Position numbers and translations under genes: made by a program. From contig NZ_RCCJ01000001.1 of NCBI RefSeq assembly GCF_003664005.1, positions 558,001 through 622,000 on the forward strand: 64,000 nt of DNA, written 5' to 3'. A model generated the notes under the pieces. That model saw only the letters and a list, made by a program, of their open reading frames with translations. It did no database searches and was not told the DNA's origin. Origin of the DNA: Hydrogenivirga caldilitoris. Its GTDB lineage: Bacteria > Aquificota > Aquificia > Aquificales > Aquificaceae. Shown here piece after piece: positions 37,480-63,361 of this stretch (its first letter is position 1; every line of letters starts with the position of its first letter).

Positions 37480-38564
37480 AACACTTCCAATTTAGCCTTT
37501 AGAGCCCCGGCTTCTTTTATAGCTTGAAGGACAGATATTATTTCCCTGGGTGTGGCACCTATCTTGTTAAGAGAGTTTACCAGCTCCTGGACGGTTGCTC
37601 CCTTTATAGGGACAAGCCTTCTGTCCTCCTCAACCACCTCTATCTCGGTTCTCGGGACAACCTTTGTCTCACCCCCTGAAAAGGGAGGTGGTTGGGATAC
37701 TTCCGGCATTTCCTTGACCTTCACGACCAGACTCCCAACTGCCACTGCAACAGGGTTTATTCTGACTCCTCCCCCGAGCACTATCGTTCCGGACCTGCTG
37801 TCTATAACAACCTTTGCAACTTGAGATGTGCTTACCTCAAGGTTCTCAACTTCAGCAAGGAAATCAACCGGATTTAAACCCTCGGGCACGTTTACCTTTA
37901 CTGTCGCGCTGTCAACAGCTGTAGCTATGGGTGCGCCAAACCTCTTGTTTATGACATCCTGTACCCTTTTGGCTGTCGTAAAATCAGGTATATCAAGGAT
38001 TATGTTTATCTCTGTTACCTTCATATCAAAGGGGAGGTCCCTTTCAAGTACTGCCCCGTTCGGTATTCTTCCAACGGTTGGCACGTTTTTAACCTGTGTT
38101 GCCCCCCTTCCCCTCGCTTCATACCCTCCGACTATCAACTGCCCCTGAGCAAGGGCGTATATGTTACCATCAGGTCCTCTCAAAGGAGTCAGAAGTAGCG
38201 TTCCTCCTTCCAGACTCTTGGCATCACCAATTGAGGATACGTCCACATCAACCCTCATGCCAGCCTTGGCGTAAGGGGGGAGTTTTGCGGTGACCATTAC
38301 CGCTGCTACGTTCTTTACAGTTATTCTGTTAGGGTCAACAACTATGCCCATCTTCTGAAGGGCGTTTGCCAAGCTCTTTACTGTAAACTGAGTTGCCTTT
38401 CCGTCTCCGGTTCCCCTGAGTCCCACTACCAACCCGTAGCCTTGGAGGTAGTTAATCCTGTTGCCCTCTATGGTTGCTATATCCTTTATCCTCTCGGAAA
38501 AGGTAACGGATATAAGGAGCAGTATCAGAAGGGGAATATTAAGGCAAATATCCTTGCAAGCCAT
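37476..38564 (-). CDS. flgI: Flagellar P-ring protein FlgI
   Basis: 362 residues. Builds the P ring around the flagellar rod in the periplasm. Seen: signal segment ICLNIPLLILLLISVTFS, then RIKDIATIEGNRINYLQGYGLVVGLRGTGDG, ITVKNVAAVMVTAKLPPYAKAGMRVDVDVSSIGDAKSLEGG, GNIYALAQGQLIVGG and the end with VQELVNSLNKIGATPREIISVLQAI. Everything expected is present. It begins 40 bases inside flgH. Confidence 0.97.
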   Translation of the reverse strand: MACKDICLNIPLLILLLISVTFSERIKDIATIEGNRINYLQGYGLVVGLRGTGDGKATQFTVKSLANALQKMGIVVDPNRITVKNVAAVMVTAKLPPYAKAGMRVDVDVSSIGDAKSLEGGTLLLTPLRGPDGNIYALAQGQLIVGGYEARGRGATQVKNVPTVGRIPNGAVLERDLPFDMKVTEINIILDIPDFTTAKRVQDVINKRFGAPIATAVDSATVKVNVPEGLNPVDFLAEVENLEVSTSQVAKVVIDSRSGTIVLGGGVRINPVAVAVGSLVVKVKEMPEVSQPPPFSGGETKVVPRTEIEVVEEDRRLVPIKGATVQELVNSLNKIGATPREIISVLQAIKEAGALKAKLEVL

Positions 38565-39202
38565 CCGGGCTTACCTCCCTCAGCCATGTAACCCTTACCG
38601 TCTAAAAAGACCTCCATGTTGGCAATTTTCTCGCTGGTTACCGTATTATTGCTGTCTATATCCTCCGGTCTTATTATGCCCCTCAGGACAAACTCTCTCT
38701 TCATACCGTTCACCACTATATACTTCTTCGCTTCTATTAACATCGTCCTGTTCGGGTAAACTTTTACCACTCTGCCTGCGAGTCTTGTAGTCAGTACACC
38801 CTGCTGTTGCACCTTGCTTGAAGCTTTAGTATCAAACTTACCCTCTGCCTGGCTACCTAAGTTGGCAAGTGTGTTCTGGGGCACACCAAAGAAGGAGCTA
38901 ATAGCGTTGGAGAACGCTGTAGACCTACCTGCCTGATTGGATAAACTCTCCACGGCGTTCATACTCTCCACCACGTATATAAAAATGAGGTCTCCCGGTT
39001 TTGCTGCCCTGTTTTCCCCGTAGAGGTCAACCCATCCTCCCTTTGAAAGCAAGCTACCGCGCATCTGTTTCTCCTTATACTCTTCTTGAGGGAAGGGGTT
39101 TTCCCGTTCATAGGTTGCCAGGTCCCTTGGTTTTTCAGAGCAGGATAAAAGGAGGGTTGTGAAAACCACAATAAATGAAGCCAAAAAAGCCCCCATTATC
39201 AC
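38525..39202 (-). CDS. flgH: Flagellar L-ring protein FlgH
   Basis: 225 residues. Outer-membrane lipoprotein ring around the rod. Seen: a lipoprotein signal ending VFTTLLLSC, an early GSLLSKGGWVDLYGENRAAKPGDLIFIYV, TRLAGRVVKVYPNRTMLIEAKK, and VNGMKREFVLRGIIRPEDIDSNNTVTSEKIANMEV, the FlgH core. The start is unsure: GTG 39202 or ATG 39196; neither has a binding site, and a TATATT lies a few bases upstream. The C-terminus is hydrophobic and overlaps flgI. Confidence 0.93.
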   Translation of the reverse strand: MIMGAFLASFIVVFTTLLLSCSEKPRDLATYERENPFPQEEYKEKQMRGSLLSKGGWVDLYGENRAAKPGDLIFIYVVESMNAVESLSNQAGRSTAFSNAISSFFGVPQNTLANLGSQAEGKFDTKASSKVQQQGVLTTRLAGRVVKVYPNRTMLIEAKKYIVVNGMKREFVLRGIIRPEDIDSNNTVTSEKIANMEVFLDGKGYMAEGGKPGWLARIFALIFPF

Positions 39203-58551: not shown

Positions 58552-59775
58552 ATGAGGTCCAAGAAGATTTTAGTGGCAACTCTGGGAGTCATGCCTGTTA
58601 TTCTCGCCTGTGGAGCAAAAACGTCACAGATTGACCCAACTGCGTATCCAATAACACCTTTAGACCAGGTTAAGGTTGAAATACCGGACGCCTGCCGGCT
58701 GGCTTACGAAAACGCTGTTCCGAAGGTTGCCGTGGTAGATTTTGCTAACAACAGTACCTTTGACCTTGCAAACGCTATACAGACAGCTTCCGCGGGAACA
58801 GAGTCAAGAAAGTACGTGAGAGGAGGAGCATGGGGTGTCGGTGTAGTTGGTCCAGGAGTTATAGGAGTTGGGGGAGTGTCCGCAGGAGCAAGCAAAAGGG
58901 ACTGGAGAACCCAGTCTGAAACCATATCAAGGCAGATAAACGCAAAGATAGGAGAGAGTGTAGCTGAAGCTGTGGTCAGCGAAGTGGCAAGCATAGGAGG
59001 GATGAAGGTTTACACCCGAAGGGACTTGCAAAAGGTGCTTGAAGAGCAAAAGCTCCAGATGTCAGGGCTTATTGACCCGAACACCGCCGTCCAGATCGGT
59101 CAGCTCGCCGGTGTGAAGTACATAATTACAGGGGCGGTTAATAACGTAAACCTCAAGTGGGTGTCCCTTGAGGAAGCCAAGGGGGCTGCAAAGGGACTCT
59201 TTGGAACATGGGGTTCTGTCCTTGCGGCTGGTGCGGCTACACAGGAGGGATGGAACGTTATCGTTGACGTGGTGATAAAGGTGATAGATACCGAAACTGG
59301 TGAAGTCGTCCTATCTAAAACCGTTTCGGGAAGGGAGGTTATGGGCAAAACTCCCCAGTTCAGCTATGACTCTATAATAGGAGGAATTAAAAAGGCTGTT
59401 GCGGAGGCTGTTGAAGATATCAGACCTGAAATATCTAAACTCTTCCCGCTCAGAGGGTACATAATCCAGCTCAGGACGGCGCCCGATAAGAGTAAGAGGT
59501 ACGCCCTTATAAATGTTGGAGCCCAGCAGGGTGTGAAATCTGGGCAGGAGTTTTATGTTATAGACTTCCAGGCTGTTCAGGACCCGATAAGCGGAAGAAC
59601 CACCTGTGACCAGGTCAAGCTTCCTGTGTCCCTTGTGGTTTCCAACCAGATACAGACAGACAAAGCCTGGGCTGTACTGGAGGGAGACAAGGCTCAGATT
59701 ATGAGGGTGAAGCTGGGGCAAATTGTTGAAAGGAAACCCCTTGAGGGGGGAAGCGGTCTTAAGAAGCTATTCTGA
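58552..59775 (+). CDS. CsgG-like outer-membrane lipoprotein
   Basis: 407 residues. Signal with lipobox VILAC, C20. Residues about 55-310 resemble CsgG: PKVAVVDFANNSTF, KIGESVAEAVVSEVASIGGMKVYTRRDLQKVLEEQK as the helix-strand at about 129-164, GQLAGVKYIITGAV, VIDTETGEVVLSKTVSGRE. The C-terminal part with YALINVGAQQGVKSGQEFYVID resembles the FlgT C-terminal domain. CsgG forms the curli export pore; others of the superfamily are assembly factors. It heads a four-gene operon 11 bases before the lectin-domain gene. No curli subunit genes are present, so the cargo or role is open. Confidence 0.82.
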   Translation: MRSKKILVATLGVMPVILACGAKTSQIDPTAYPITPLDQVKVEIPDACRLAYENAVPKVAVVDFANNSTFDLANAIQTASAGTESRKYVRGGAWGVGVVGPGVIGVGGVSAGASKRDWRTQSETISRQINAKIGESVAEAVVSEVASIGGMKVYTRRDLQKVLEEQKLQMSGLIDPNTAVQIGQLAGVKYIITGAVNNVNLKWVSLEEAKGAAKGLFGTWGSVLAAGAATQEGWNVIVDVVIKVIDTETGEVVLSKTVSGREVMGKTPQFSYDSIIGGIKKAVAEAVEDIRPEISKLFPLRGYIIQLRTAPDKSKRYALINVGAQQGVKSGQEFYVIDFQAVQDPISGRTTCDQVKLPVSLVVSNQIQTDKAWAVLEGDKAQIMRVKLGQIVERKPLEGGSGLKKLF

Positions 59776-59786
59776 GGGAGGAAGTC

Positions 59787-62159
59787 ATGAGGCTGTTCTT
59801 AATCGTTCTTACCCTGATGGGTCTTTCCTTTTCTGCTCCTCCTTTTATACCGCCCGGATGGCACAACCCCCAAAATCCTCATTACGGTGGTCAGGGACAA
59901 GTTGCGGCAACAGAGTTCACTAGTTTGAGTAATCCACCATTTACTCTTATTGTTTTTACTGGTCCGGTAAACTGGGCTACAGCAGCAGCGGCATGCAGAT
60001 CAAAAGGTTTAGAAATAGCCTCTATACATAACCTTGAAGAGAATATGAAGGTGCTTGCCTTACTCAAAAGTGTGTCCTGGCAACCGGGTGTGTGGAAGGG
60101 AGCATGGATAGGTCTGACCGACGATGGATCTGAAGGCAGGTGGAGATGGGCAGATGGTTCTCCCGTTGACTTTCTAAACTTTGGACCTGGAGAACCTAAC
60201 GGTGGAACTTATGAAAACTATGGAGCTATTGAGCTTGCGAGAGCGGGAAGACCGGACGGATGGTGGAACGATGCCAATGTAAACGAGAAGTACGGAGCTG
60301 TGGTTTGTAGAGGAGGTGCTGTTGCTTCGGTTTCTGAGTTACCTTCCTTATCTTCAACTACAAGTGGATTTCAAGGTGGGGATAAAGTTCTACTTTTAGT
60401 GGATAGCACAACCTGTCCTGCTGGGGATGTGGTAAAAGACCTTAGCATAATCAAGGGAAGCTATGAGTGTGTTGATTTTCAAGGGAAACGCTGGATAAAG
60501 CCTTTTGATGCAGGTTTAAATCTTTACAAACCACTAAACATATCTGGAGACTTTTCTCTTGAATTTGAGTTCTATACCTTCGAACCCGGATGCCCTTTTG
60601 TAGCGGTTAACCTTTTCCCCGAGAGGACCTTGAAGGAAGCTCAGGAAGGTAATCAATATGCTCTTGGGGGAGATACCTTCATAGTTTTGAAGGGGAGCTG
60701 TGACAGGTTTGAAGCAGGTGTCTCCTCCAGCCCCCGTGGCAGCAGGGATGCTTTTTACGAATACAAGAGGAACATACAGAAAGGAGCCATACATTCCGTT
60801 GCCTTAGCCGTCAGGAATGGGAAGGCTATTATATACCTGGATGGTAACAAGATAGCATCGGAACCCTTTACACCGACCGAGCCAATAAGAGGTATAGGCT
60901 TTTACTTCTACAAACACTATGAAACGGACAAGCCTTACGGTGATTTTCCTGCACTCATAGGCAACGTAAAGCTCGCTCTCTATACTGGAGCCCCTCAGCA
61001 ACCCGCCCAGATGCAGCCTCCTCCTCTATCACCTCCTCAACCGCAGGTCTCCTTACCTAAACCTCAGCCACCGCCTCCTCCGGCTCCGATACAGCCCTTT
61101 AAGAAACAGGTTAAGTGTATAGAATCCGTGGGAGTGGGTGAGGCGTCGGTGATAGGTGGTGATAGGGCGAGTGCCAAGGCTGAAGCTCTTGCGAGGGCAA
61201 AGTGGGACGCTATAGAGAAGGCTCTCGGTGTAACGACGAGCGTGAAGACCATAGTCCAGAACTTCCAACTACTGGACGAGGTGATAAAGAACCAGGTAGG
61301 GGGATTCATAAAGGATGTCAAAGTGCTTCAGGAAGAGAACTTTGCCGATATGGTAAGGGTTAAGGTGAGGGGCTGTGTCTATCCCGAAGAGGCTGAAAGA
61401 GCCTTAAGCTTGATATCAAGCGATACCGCGTTCAGTGTGATGGTTATAGTAAAGAACCCAAGCGGTGTAGAGCTTGATGAGATGAATCCGGTCACCACGG
61501 AGCTGGTTAATATTCTCAACCAGCAGGGCTTCAAGGTCTACGATTTTGCGGGGAACCCCAATGTGAACCCCTACGATGTGGAGCAGATAGTGGCACAGAA
61601 GAGATTCATACTTCTGAGGGCTTATATGTCAAGAGCTCTCTCTGGGGCTATGGTTGTCGGCAAGGTAGAGCTGGTTCCTTCAACCCAGACCGGTCAGGAT
61701 ATAGGTTACGGAATAAGGGCGACCTTCAACGTTGTCACGGCAAGGCTCAACTACTACCTCCTTGCCAGGGACGCAGACGGGCTGAGGATAGTGGCTTCGG
61801 GCTCTCTGTCGGCTATGGGAAGAGCACCCAACCTTCAAGATGCCAATTACAAGGCTATGGAGGCTCTCGCCCAGAAGCTTGGAAGCGACATAATGGGAAA
61901 GATAGAGCGCTACAGGGCATCTAAGAAGAAGGTCGTCACGGTCGTTGTGAAGGGCGTAAAGAGTACCAGCCAGAACTTTGAGATAAAGGAGAAACTCCAG
62001 AGAGTTCCATGGGTTGAGTCCGTTGAAGACCTCGGACTCGGTAAGTTTAAGGTTACGTACCTTGAAAACACGGTTTATCTTGCCAACGCGATAGAGAGGA
62101 TGCCCGAGCTTAAGCTTATAAGATTCTCACCTACTGAGGTGGAGGCGAGCTCACTATGA
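59787..62159 (+). CDS. Exported C-type lectin, LamG-like and LPP20/FlgT-like multidomain protein
   Basis: 790 residues. Signal peptide RLFLIVLTLMGLSFSA. Residues about 48-176 form a C-type lectin domain: C70, WIGL (107-110), RWRWADG, EPN (136-138), WND (160-162) and C174. EPN plus WND is the calcium site pattern of mannose-type lectins. Residues about 225-400 look like a concanavalin/LamG domain (HSVALAVRNGKAIIYLDG). A proline-rich linker spans 403-437. Residues 440-535 match LPP20/FlgT-N (VGVGEASVIGGDRASAKAEALARAKWDAIEKALGV region). The rest is periplasmic alpha/beta sequence. I infer a surface or periplasmic carbohydrate-binding protein tied to the CsgG-like lipoprotein. Confidence 0.8.
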   Translation: MRLFLIVLTLMGLSFSAPPFIPPGWHNPQNPHYGGQGQVAATEFTSLSNPPFTLIVFTGPVNWATAAAACRSKGLEIASIHNLEENMKVLALLKSVSWQPGVWKGAWIGLTDDGSEGRWRWADGSPVDFLNFGPGEPNGGTYENYGAIELARAGRPDGWWNDANVNEKYGAVVCRGGAVASVSELPSLSSTTSGFQGGDKVLLLVDSTTCPAGDVVKDLSIIKGSYECVDFQGKRWIKPFDAGLNLYKPLNISGDFSLEFEFYTFEPGCPFVAVNLFPERTLKEAQEGNQYALGGDTFIVLKGSCDRFEAGVSSSPRGSRDAFYEYKRNIQKGAIHSVALAVRNGKAIIYLDGNKIASEPFTPTEPIRGIGFYFYKHYETDKPYGDFPALIGNVKLALYTGAPQQPAQMQPPPLSPPQPQVSLPKPQPPPPPAPIQPFKKQVKCIESVGVGEASVIGGDRASAKAEALARAKWDAIEKALGVTTSVKTIVQNFQLLDEVIKNQVGGFIKDVKVLQEENFADMVRVKVRGCVYPEEAERALSLISSDTAFSVMVIVKNPSGVELDEMNPVTTELVNILNQQGFKVYDFAGNPNVNPYDVEQIVAQKRFILLRAYMSRALSGAMVVGKVELVPSTQTGQDIGYGIRATFNVVTARLNYYLLARDADGLRIVASGSLSAMGRAPNLQDANYKAMEALAQKLGSDIMGKIERYRASKKKVVTVVVKGVKSTSQNFEIKEKLQRVPWVESVEDLGLGKFKVTYLENTVYLANAIERMPELKLIRFSPTEVEASSL

Positions 62160-62779
62160 GACATCTGCTCGTGCCCCTCCTTTTGCCCCTTTTACTCTTT
62201 GTATCCTGCGGACCAAAAACAGAAAAGGTAAAGACCGAACCCAGAAAGGAAGAACAGCTCCAGAGGGCGGAGAGAGCTTTTGAAGAGCTTGAGAGAGAAG
62301 CTCCAAAACCTGCCAAGGAGCTCACCCTTGAAGAGGGTAGAACTCCTCAGTTAAGGGAGGAACCCCAGAGGTTAGAAAAAGCGCCCATTGAGATTGCAAA
62401 GAGAGAGGAACCGAGAACCAAGTATCCTCTCAAGGATGGATTGCCCGTATGGGTTCACAATCCCAACTACGGCGGAGTTCTCGGAGGTGTGGGGATAGCT
62501 AAAAAGATACCGGGCAAGGGTTACGCCGAGCAGAAGAGACTTGCCAAGCAGATAGCCCTTGCAGACCTTGCTAAGCAGATAGAGATAATAGTGAAGTCGG
62601 AGCTTACGAAGGTTGAAATAAACGTTGACACCCAAACCCTTCAATACTACAAGAAGACCTTTAACTCACTCTCAGAGCAGGAGGTTAGGGAGGTCCTTAT
62701 CAAGAATGCAACCATAGAAGATGAATGGATTGACCCAAAGACAGGAGACCTGTACGTGTGGGTTGTTTTGAAAAGATAA
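62156..62779 (+). CDS. LPP20-family lipoprotein
   Basis: 207 residues. Lipoprotein signal with LLFVSC, C18. Residues 20-90 are a charged, proline-containing spacer. The C-terminal domain (about 95-207) is LPP20-like: LPVWVHNPNYGGVLGGVGIAKKIPGKGYAEQKRLAKQIALADLAKQIEIIVKSEL at about 97-150, with VGIA and ALADLAKQI as its hallmarks. The same fold occurs in the FlgT N-terminus and in the preceding gene. It overlaps that gene by 4 bases (ATGA). Confidence 0.85.
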   Translation: MRHLLVPLLLPLLLFVSCGPKTEKVKTEPRKEEQLQRAERAFEELEREAPKPAKELTLEEGRTPQLREEPQRLEKAPIEIAKREEPRTKYPLKDGLPVWVHNPNYGGVLGGVGIAKKIPGKGYAEQKRLAKQIALADLAKQIEIIVKSELTKVEINVDTQTLQYYKKTFNSLSEQEVREVLIKNATIEDEWIDPKTGDLYVWVVLKR

Positions 62780-62794
62780 GATTGGAGGTGAGAT

Positions 62795-63361
62795 ATGAAG
62801 CGATTCATCTTGGCTGGAGGGTTAATCTTGTCAACCCAGCTCTATGCTGTTGAGCTTGGTGTGAAGCTTGGGAACGCTCGGATAAACTGGAGCGGAGGCA
62901 ATGATAGCACAACGCTGGAGGGATACGTGGCTTTTTATGGAGAGTATCTTTTCCCGGTCACCCCTGTCCTGAGTGTAGGACCGAATGTAGAGCTTGGTTA
63001 CGGGAAAAAGAGTATAGGTACCTTCTACTGTGCCGGCTACGGTACATGTTCCGTTGACCTCACTTACACCACCCTTGAGCTCAATGCAAAGGCTGTTCTG
63101 AGTGTAGCTCCAGTTTTAGACCTCTACGGTGGGGCTGGTATATCCTCAAACAGGTTTGGACTTGATGCAAAGGACCCCGTTACGGACGCTCCTGTTGGAA
63201 CCATAGGTAACGAGAATGGAGGAGGAGCTCAGGCTTTTGCAGGTGCCCAGTTGAAGGTCGGTAACTTCGGGGCGGGGCTTGAATACAAGTACAAGGCTGT
63301 TGACACGGAATCTGTGGATTCTGTGGACGTGGTAGCCCTTACCCTCTTTGTCCGATTCTGA
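62795..63361 (+). CDS. Small outer-membrane beta-barrel protein
   Basis: 188 residues. Signal peptide KRFILAGGLILSTQLYA, then alternating beta strands (VELGVKLGNARINW, LEGYVAFYGEYLF, VGPNVELGYG, LDLYGGAGISSNRF, GNFGAGLEYKYKAV) ending in VALTLFVRF, an outer-membrane insertion signal. It suggests an eight-stranded barrel of the OmpA/OmpW or OprF-N kind. Two cysteines in CAGYGTC could form a loop disulfide. It is the fourth gene of the cassette, 15 bases after the lipoprotein gene, with a GGAGGT site. Confidence 0.78.
   Translation: MKRFILAGGLILSTQLYAVELGVKLGNARINWSGGNDSTTLEGYVAFYGEYLFPVTPVLSVGPNVELGYGKKSIGTFYCAGYGTCSVDLTYTTLELNAKAVLSVAPVLDLYGGAGISSNRFGLDAKDPVTDAPVGTIGNENGGGAQAFAGAQLKVGNFGAGLEYKYKAVDTESVDSVDVVALTLFVRF

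Follow-up and report, generated by a model that had tools for sequence, protein, structure and literature searches.

Animal C-type lectin domains (CTLDs), such as those of CD23, the mannose receptor (CRD4), SP-D, MBP and DC-SIGN (PF00059), share with the bacterial domain described here the fold with its WIGL core, the EPN...E...WND residues of calcium site 2 and the outer cysteine pair. An inner disulfide is typical of animal CRDs, where it occurs in addition to the outer one, but it does not define the CTLD superfamily. Many CTLDs bind proteins or ice, and the site-2 residues usually drift in those that have lost sugar binding. In contrast to the animal CRDs, the domain under study lacks the inner disulfide, belongs to a thermophilic bacterium and shares one polypeptide with a ConA-like domain and a scaffold that resembles FlgT. 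The closest structural counterpart of this scaffold is FlgT of Vibrio (3w1e; LPHT ring 8z5n). The rings formed by FlgT and FlgP are periplasmic structures or are located at the inner face of the outer membrane. FlgP assembles into the concentric rings of the Campylobacter basal disk and FlgT into outer-membrane-associated rings; FlgP, Helicobacter Lpp20 and FlgT have been placed under one SHS2-like fold (PMC12222027).

The window, i.e. the whole stretch of 64,000 nucleotides that was analysed, encodes a modular protein of 790 residues (Table 1). Its N-terminus, MRLFLIVLTLMGLSFSA, reads by eye as a Sec-type signal, in agreement with the initial annotation, which had described an exported protein of this length. 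Lectin_C is the sole Pfam family matched; the ConA-like fold and the FlgT-like base go beyond the C-type lectin finding from which the analysis started. We propose that a glycan-binding module, Ca2+-dependent and exchangeable, sits on a FlgT-like scaffold associated with the outer membrane, a reading to which we assign a probability of about 0.5.

Table 1. Features of the 790-residue protein and its neighbours (nucleotide positions in the window)
Feature	Position	Strand	Basis
CsgG-like outer-membrane lipoprotein, lipobox-like VILAC/G	58552-59775	+	Pfam CsgG, E 2e-13; conserved upstream neighbour
790-aa exported modular protein (CTLD + ConA-like + FlgT-like scaffold)	59787-62159	+	ORF list, translation, profile and structure searches
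Signal peptide, aa 1-17, no lipobox Cys	59787-59837	+	read by eye
C-type lectin domain, aa 41-178	59907-60320	+	Pfam Lectin_C, fold matches
Cys70, outer-disulfide cysteine	59994-59996	+	alignment, motif positions
EPN motif, aa 136-138; E136, N138 predicted Ca site-2 ligands by homology	60192-60200	+	invariant in 11 aligned sequences
E143, third predicted Ca site-2 ligand by homology	60213-60215	+	alignment, motif positions
WND motif, aa 160-162; N161, D162 predicted Ca site-2 ligands by homology	60264-60272	+	alignment, motif positions
Cys174, outer-disulfide cysteine	60306-60308	+	motif positions
ConA-like/L-type-lectin-like jelly roll, aa 196-402	60372-60992	+	AF2 pLDDT about 90, VIA, Foldseek
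Proline-rich linker, aa 403-440	60993-61106	+	sequence; pLDDT under 50
FlgT-like scaffold, aa 441-790	61107-62156	+	Foldseek, NCBIfam, profile search
LPP20-family lipoprotein, lipobox-like LFVSC/G, overlaps the 790-aa ORF stop	62156-62779	+	Pfam LPP20, E 6.3e-9
Outer-membrane beta-barrel protein	62795-63361	+	Pfam OMP_b-brl, E 8e-7

Lectin_C (PF00059) matches residues 61-174 with an E value of 3.3e-10 and 41.1 bits, well above the gathering score of 22.6 bits. A phmmer search of the PDB sequences gave 141 matches at E<0.01, and those listed are animal CTLD proteins nearly throughout. The AF2 model of the domain, built from 11 rows (pLDDT 71), matched CD23 in Foldseek (E 1.3e-7), as well as SP-A and the mannose receptor, and was superimposed by VIA on SP-D, MBP and tetranectin with Z values of 11-12 and an rmsd of 2.3-3.4 Å; over the CTLDs matched, Z ranged from 11 to 13. 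The fold is unambiguous, so that both the profile search and the structure model uphold the initial assignment: it is near certain that residues 61-174 are a genuine C-type lectin domain, and a chance match is excluded.

The EPN and WND motifs and C70/C174 occupy exactly the positions originally given, and an ENY motif is located at residues 143-145. From the DC-SIGN pattern (E-P-N, E five residues on, W-N-D) we take the site-2 ligands to be E136, N138, E143, N161 and D162, which completes the canonical residue set of Ca2+ site 2. These five positions are invariant in all 11 aligned bacterial sequences, five from the window's genus and six from Selenomonadales/Quinella relatives, which are 32-78% identical to the window CTLD; the five genus sequences all have both cysteines of the outer disulfide. 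The inner pair is absent, since alignment and motif positions place Y145 where animals have a cysteine at 145 and V165 at the D+3 cysteine. The designation as a classic mannose-type calcium site therefore needs care: the five site-2 residues and the outer pair support a true C-type lectin domain, but the inner disulfide of the animal CRDs is missing. In the AF2 model the pLDDT of the long calcium loop falls below 50-60, and the ligand geometry is therefore backed by the sequence, not by the model. The window CTLD probably binds calcium and may well bind sugar. The dN/dS ratio of the CTLD ranges from 0.03 to 0.12 in pairs with estimable dS, of which only that of G010/G020 (dS 0.30, ratio 0.03) is reliable because dS is near saturation (2-3.4) in the other pairs. 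Third-position GC is lower in the CTLD (0.36) than in the scaffold (0.60), a difference that is not decisive for transfer.

Lectin_C was found in just 6 of 136 Aquificota genomes, five of them in the window's genus, which agrees with the rarity claimed for such a domain in this kind of bacterium. The accompanying statement that it is found mainly in animals understates the bacterial CTLDs with EPN and WND motifs. The spread of CTLDs across bacteria was sampled, with genomes scanned by peptide patterns derived from the window protein, and similar domains were encountered in Selenomonadales genomes, two cyanobacterial plasmids, two Clostridioides plasmids, Flavobacterium phages and three viral contigs. 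The domain is thus uncommon in this phylum, yet it belongs to a known kind that other bacteria have as well. Among the CTLDs found, those of Selenomonadales, cyanobacteria, Clostridioides and Flavobacterium phages are the closest outside the genus. The Selenomonadales domains have the same EPNGG-ENY-WND signature and likewise lack the inner cysteines; two of the Selenomonadales proteins are repeat-rich carriers, whereas the window CTLD is mounted on a FlgT-like scaffold. A search of one literature collection retrieved nothing on C-type lectins of Aquificales and nothing on the LPHT ring. A genome of the sister family, G067, encodes a secreted 294-residue protein (L036, 1156-2037 (-)) with a weak CTLD that on its own falls just under the Pfam cut-off, a Cys-rich C-terminal part and no scaffold.

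The remainder of the protein was modelled separately by AF2 (residues 184-790, 20 rows, pLDDT 79). In this model residues 196-402 form a confidently predicted beta jelly roll for which VIA returned Z values of 14-16.5 with Emp47 (16.5), ERGIC-53, calreticulin and GH16 folds; galectins and CBM66 were matched by Foldseek. The proline-rich linker behind it is disordered. The ConA-like fold is common to this stretch, the L-type lectins ERGIC-53/Emp47, galectins and CBM66, but the structural alignments show just 4-16% identity. A BFVD search with the model of the ConA-like domain and scaffold yielded, besides nameless matches, chiefly LamG/ConA-like or tail proteins of phages, and nothing more specific. 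Remote ConA-like copies lie C-terminal to CsgG-like proteins of other Aquificaceae (L024, 1207-2592 (-), CsgG match E 4e-59; L025-L028), so that these CsgG-like proteins are a second carrier of the module.

In a Foldseek search of the PDB with the same model, FlgT 3w1e was the top match (E 5.5e-10) and the LPHT ring 8z5n the third (E 1.9e-8). The TM-score of the 3w1e match is 0.29 by target at an rmsd of 13.5, and with such low TM-scores the likeness to FlgT holds domain by domain and not for the overall arrangement. Pfam FlgT_N does not match the window protein; the best match of a relative (E 1.8e-5, 25.6 bits) is under the cut-off of 28.8. The NCBIfam profile LipL46 (NF033164) matches residues 449-706 with E 1.6e-8 and 33.7 bits, far under its curated cut-off of 400; LipL46 of Leptospira is a lipoprotein, whereas the window protein has no lipobox. 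The sequence profile of the scaffold matched the lipoprotein of 9hmf (E 1.9e-5) over one 74-residue stretch. 9hmf is a Campylobacter periplasmic-scaffold entry (PMC12222027), and the length of the chain (171 residues) and its name, 'lipoprotein', suggest that it is FlgP. By its model, the scaffold is FlgT-like in fold, yet it is not filed as FlgT. It differs from the Vibrio protein in that lectin modules are attached, in that it is not tied to flagella, in that the FlgT_C-like part resides on the neighbouring protein, and in that FlgT_N is below the cut-off or absent.

The order CsgG-like gene, module plus scaffold gene and LPP20 gene is kept at 16 loci in 15 genomes. In most of the genus, where contigs reach, the beta-barrel gene and a biotin-synthase-like radical SAM gene, named from the appearance of its sequence, come next. 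The C-terminus of the CsgG-like protein gives a weak FlgT_C match (E 0.0015, below the cut-off). With CsgG, weak FlgT_C and LPP20 domains in the neighbouring proteins, the cluster contains the vocabulary of FlgO, FlgT and FlgP, distributed differently. The window also contains a gene for FlgH, the flagellar L-ring protein, at about 38531-39064 (-); converted from genome coordinates, this position lies some 20 kb away from the gene for the 790-residue protein.

Matches to the protein occur in 28 of 112 genomes of the order. The scaffold was recovered at E 1.5e-78 or better in 22 of these, 13 of which belong to the window's genus; the other six genomes gave only weak matches, none better than E 4e-10, and in five of these six it was the ConA-like stretch that matched. 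Across the genus the scaffold is 75-88% identical to that of the window, while the N-terminal part varies: a ConA-like domain alone in seven genomes (one split over two contigs), a CTLD alone in two, and CTLD+PAN, CTLD+PAN+DUF4114 and a further module with a ConA-like domain in one each. The combination of CTLD and ConA-like domain is found only in the window's genome among the 13. The sister family has scaffold-only and ConA-plus-scaffold forms, and the scaffold alone is found in two genomes of another genus of the window's family. In the G008 ortholog another module of about 100 residues (L002, aa 55-160) precedes the ConA-like domain. In two relatives, PAN_4 and DUF4114 domains separate the CTLD from the scaffold (L037, aa 292-343 and 477-505; L009, aa 274-325), which shows that the locus accepts non-lectin modules too. 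In the scaffold tree the five CTLD rows do not group together as a single clade (AU p 0.024; 4 state changes). This suggests that modules have been gained, lost or exchanged, on a weakly resolved tree with a moderately significant AU test and a change count that cannot separate gain from loss. The initial annotation had spoken of an N-terminal display module. Variation of the N-terminal part on one conserved scaffold strongly supports the word module; display fits less well with the likeness of the scaffold to a flagellar ring protein of the periplasm. That close relatives mount other binding modules on this base, at an unchanged genomic position, suggests a system for binding sugars whose tips can be exchanged.

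According to the proposed mechanism, the 790-residue protein would be exported by Sec, and its scaffold, which would probably oligomerise and may form a ring, would dock under or at the outer membrane together with the CsgG-like and LPP20/FlgP-like lipoproteins. The proline-rich linker would keep the CTLD and the ConA-like domain at a distance from this base. Once site 2 holds Ca2+, the five ligand residues would chelate the calcium together with two vicinal sugar hydroxyls, and the cell would thereby bind exopolysaccharide, the glycan of a neighbour or sugars of its own envelope, which would presumably serve adhesion. Relatives would switch ligand by switching the module while the scaffold is kept.

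The CTLD might instead be a calcium-stabilised protein-protein interaction fold that binds no sugar, as many animal CTLDs are. The loss of the inner disulfide and the number of CTLDs with protein or ice ligands are in keeping with this view, but all five site-2 residues, EPN included, are invariant at positions that usually drift once sugar binding is lost, and we regard it as quite unlikely. Other bacterial CTLD receptors are variable proteins of DGRs, for which CTLDs are the common target fold. One account describes DGR-diversified putative sensors in bacteria (PMC10907252). Such an origin of the 790-residue protein was rejected because the genome contains neither a reverse transcriptase family match nor a second, template-like copy of the 3' CTLD DNA; the CTLD loop, moreover, is strongly conserved, and a DGR origin has practically no probability.

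The lectin modules might instead act in the periplasm, where they would bind sugars of the LPS core or peptidoglycan and anchor a FlgT-like ring, with module changes tracking the envelope sugars. The fold of the scaffold is that of periplasmic FlgT, and the FlgP basal disk of Campylobacter and the outer-membrane-associated FlgT rings described above suit this scenario; given the periplasmic or inner-face location of such rings, the lectin may never face the outside. Against it, the proline-rich linker and the PAN/DUF4114 variation look more like variable surface display, and the beta-barrel and CsgG-like neighbours may provide an export route. We consider the periplasmic scenario possible but somewhat unlikely, and exposure of the lectin at the surface is an even bet. 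A flagellar motor accessory similar to the H/T ring, with lectin tips that touch the envelope or the substrate near the motor, is unlikely. The FlgT fold of the scaffold, the FlgT_N matches of relatives below the cut-off and the flagellated state of the window's genome would agree with such a role, but the adjoining genes are not flagellar structural genes, near-complete FlgH-bearing genomes without a scaffold match occur in at least six genera (g4, g6, g8, g10, g18, g20), and G067 (99% complete, 7% contamination) possesses two scaffold genes and no FlgH match. On this co-occurrence pattern, with the scaffold missing from many complete genomes of flagellated Aquificales and present in G067 without a FlgH match, a core flagellar part was rejected.

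The preferred reading, a calcium-dependent glycan-binding module on an outer-membrane-associated scaffold, joins two folds that bind carbohydrates, and that are best known from glycan receptors of animals and others, to a base with the shape of a flagellar ring protein. It does so in a thermophile lineage that branches deeply, and the changes of module between close relatives occur naturally. Tentatively, it extends to a surface organelle of the Aquificaceae, in which flagellum-independent FlgT-like rings with CsgG/LPP20 lipoproteins might carry lectin tips (C-type, ConA-type, PAN, DUF4114); closely related species would swap these tips at a single locus, and each species would thereby have a glycan specificity of its own. 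If this is true, FlgT/FlgP-type envelope rings would have been turned into adhesion devices, heat-stable C-type lectins would become available, and the recognition of sugars by Aquificales cells would have an explanation that can be tested.
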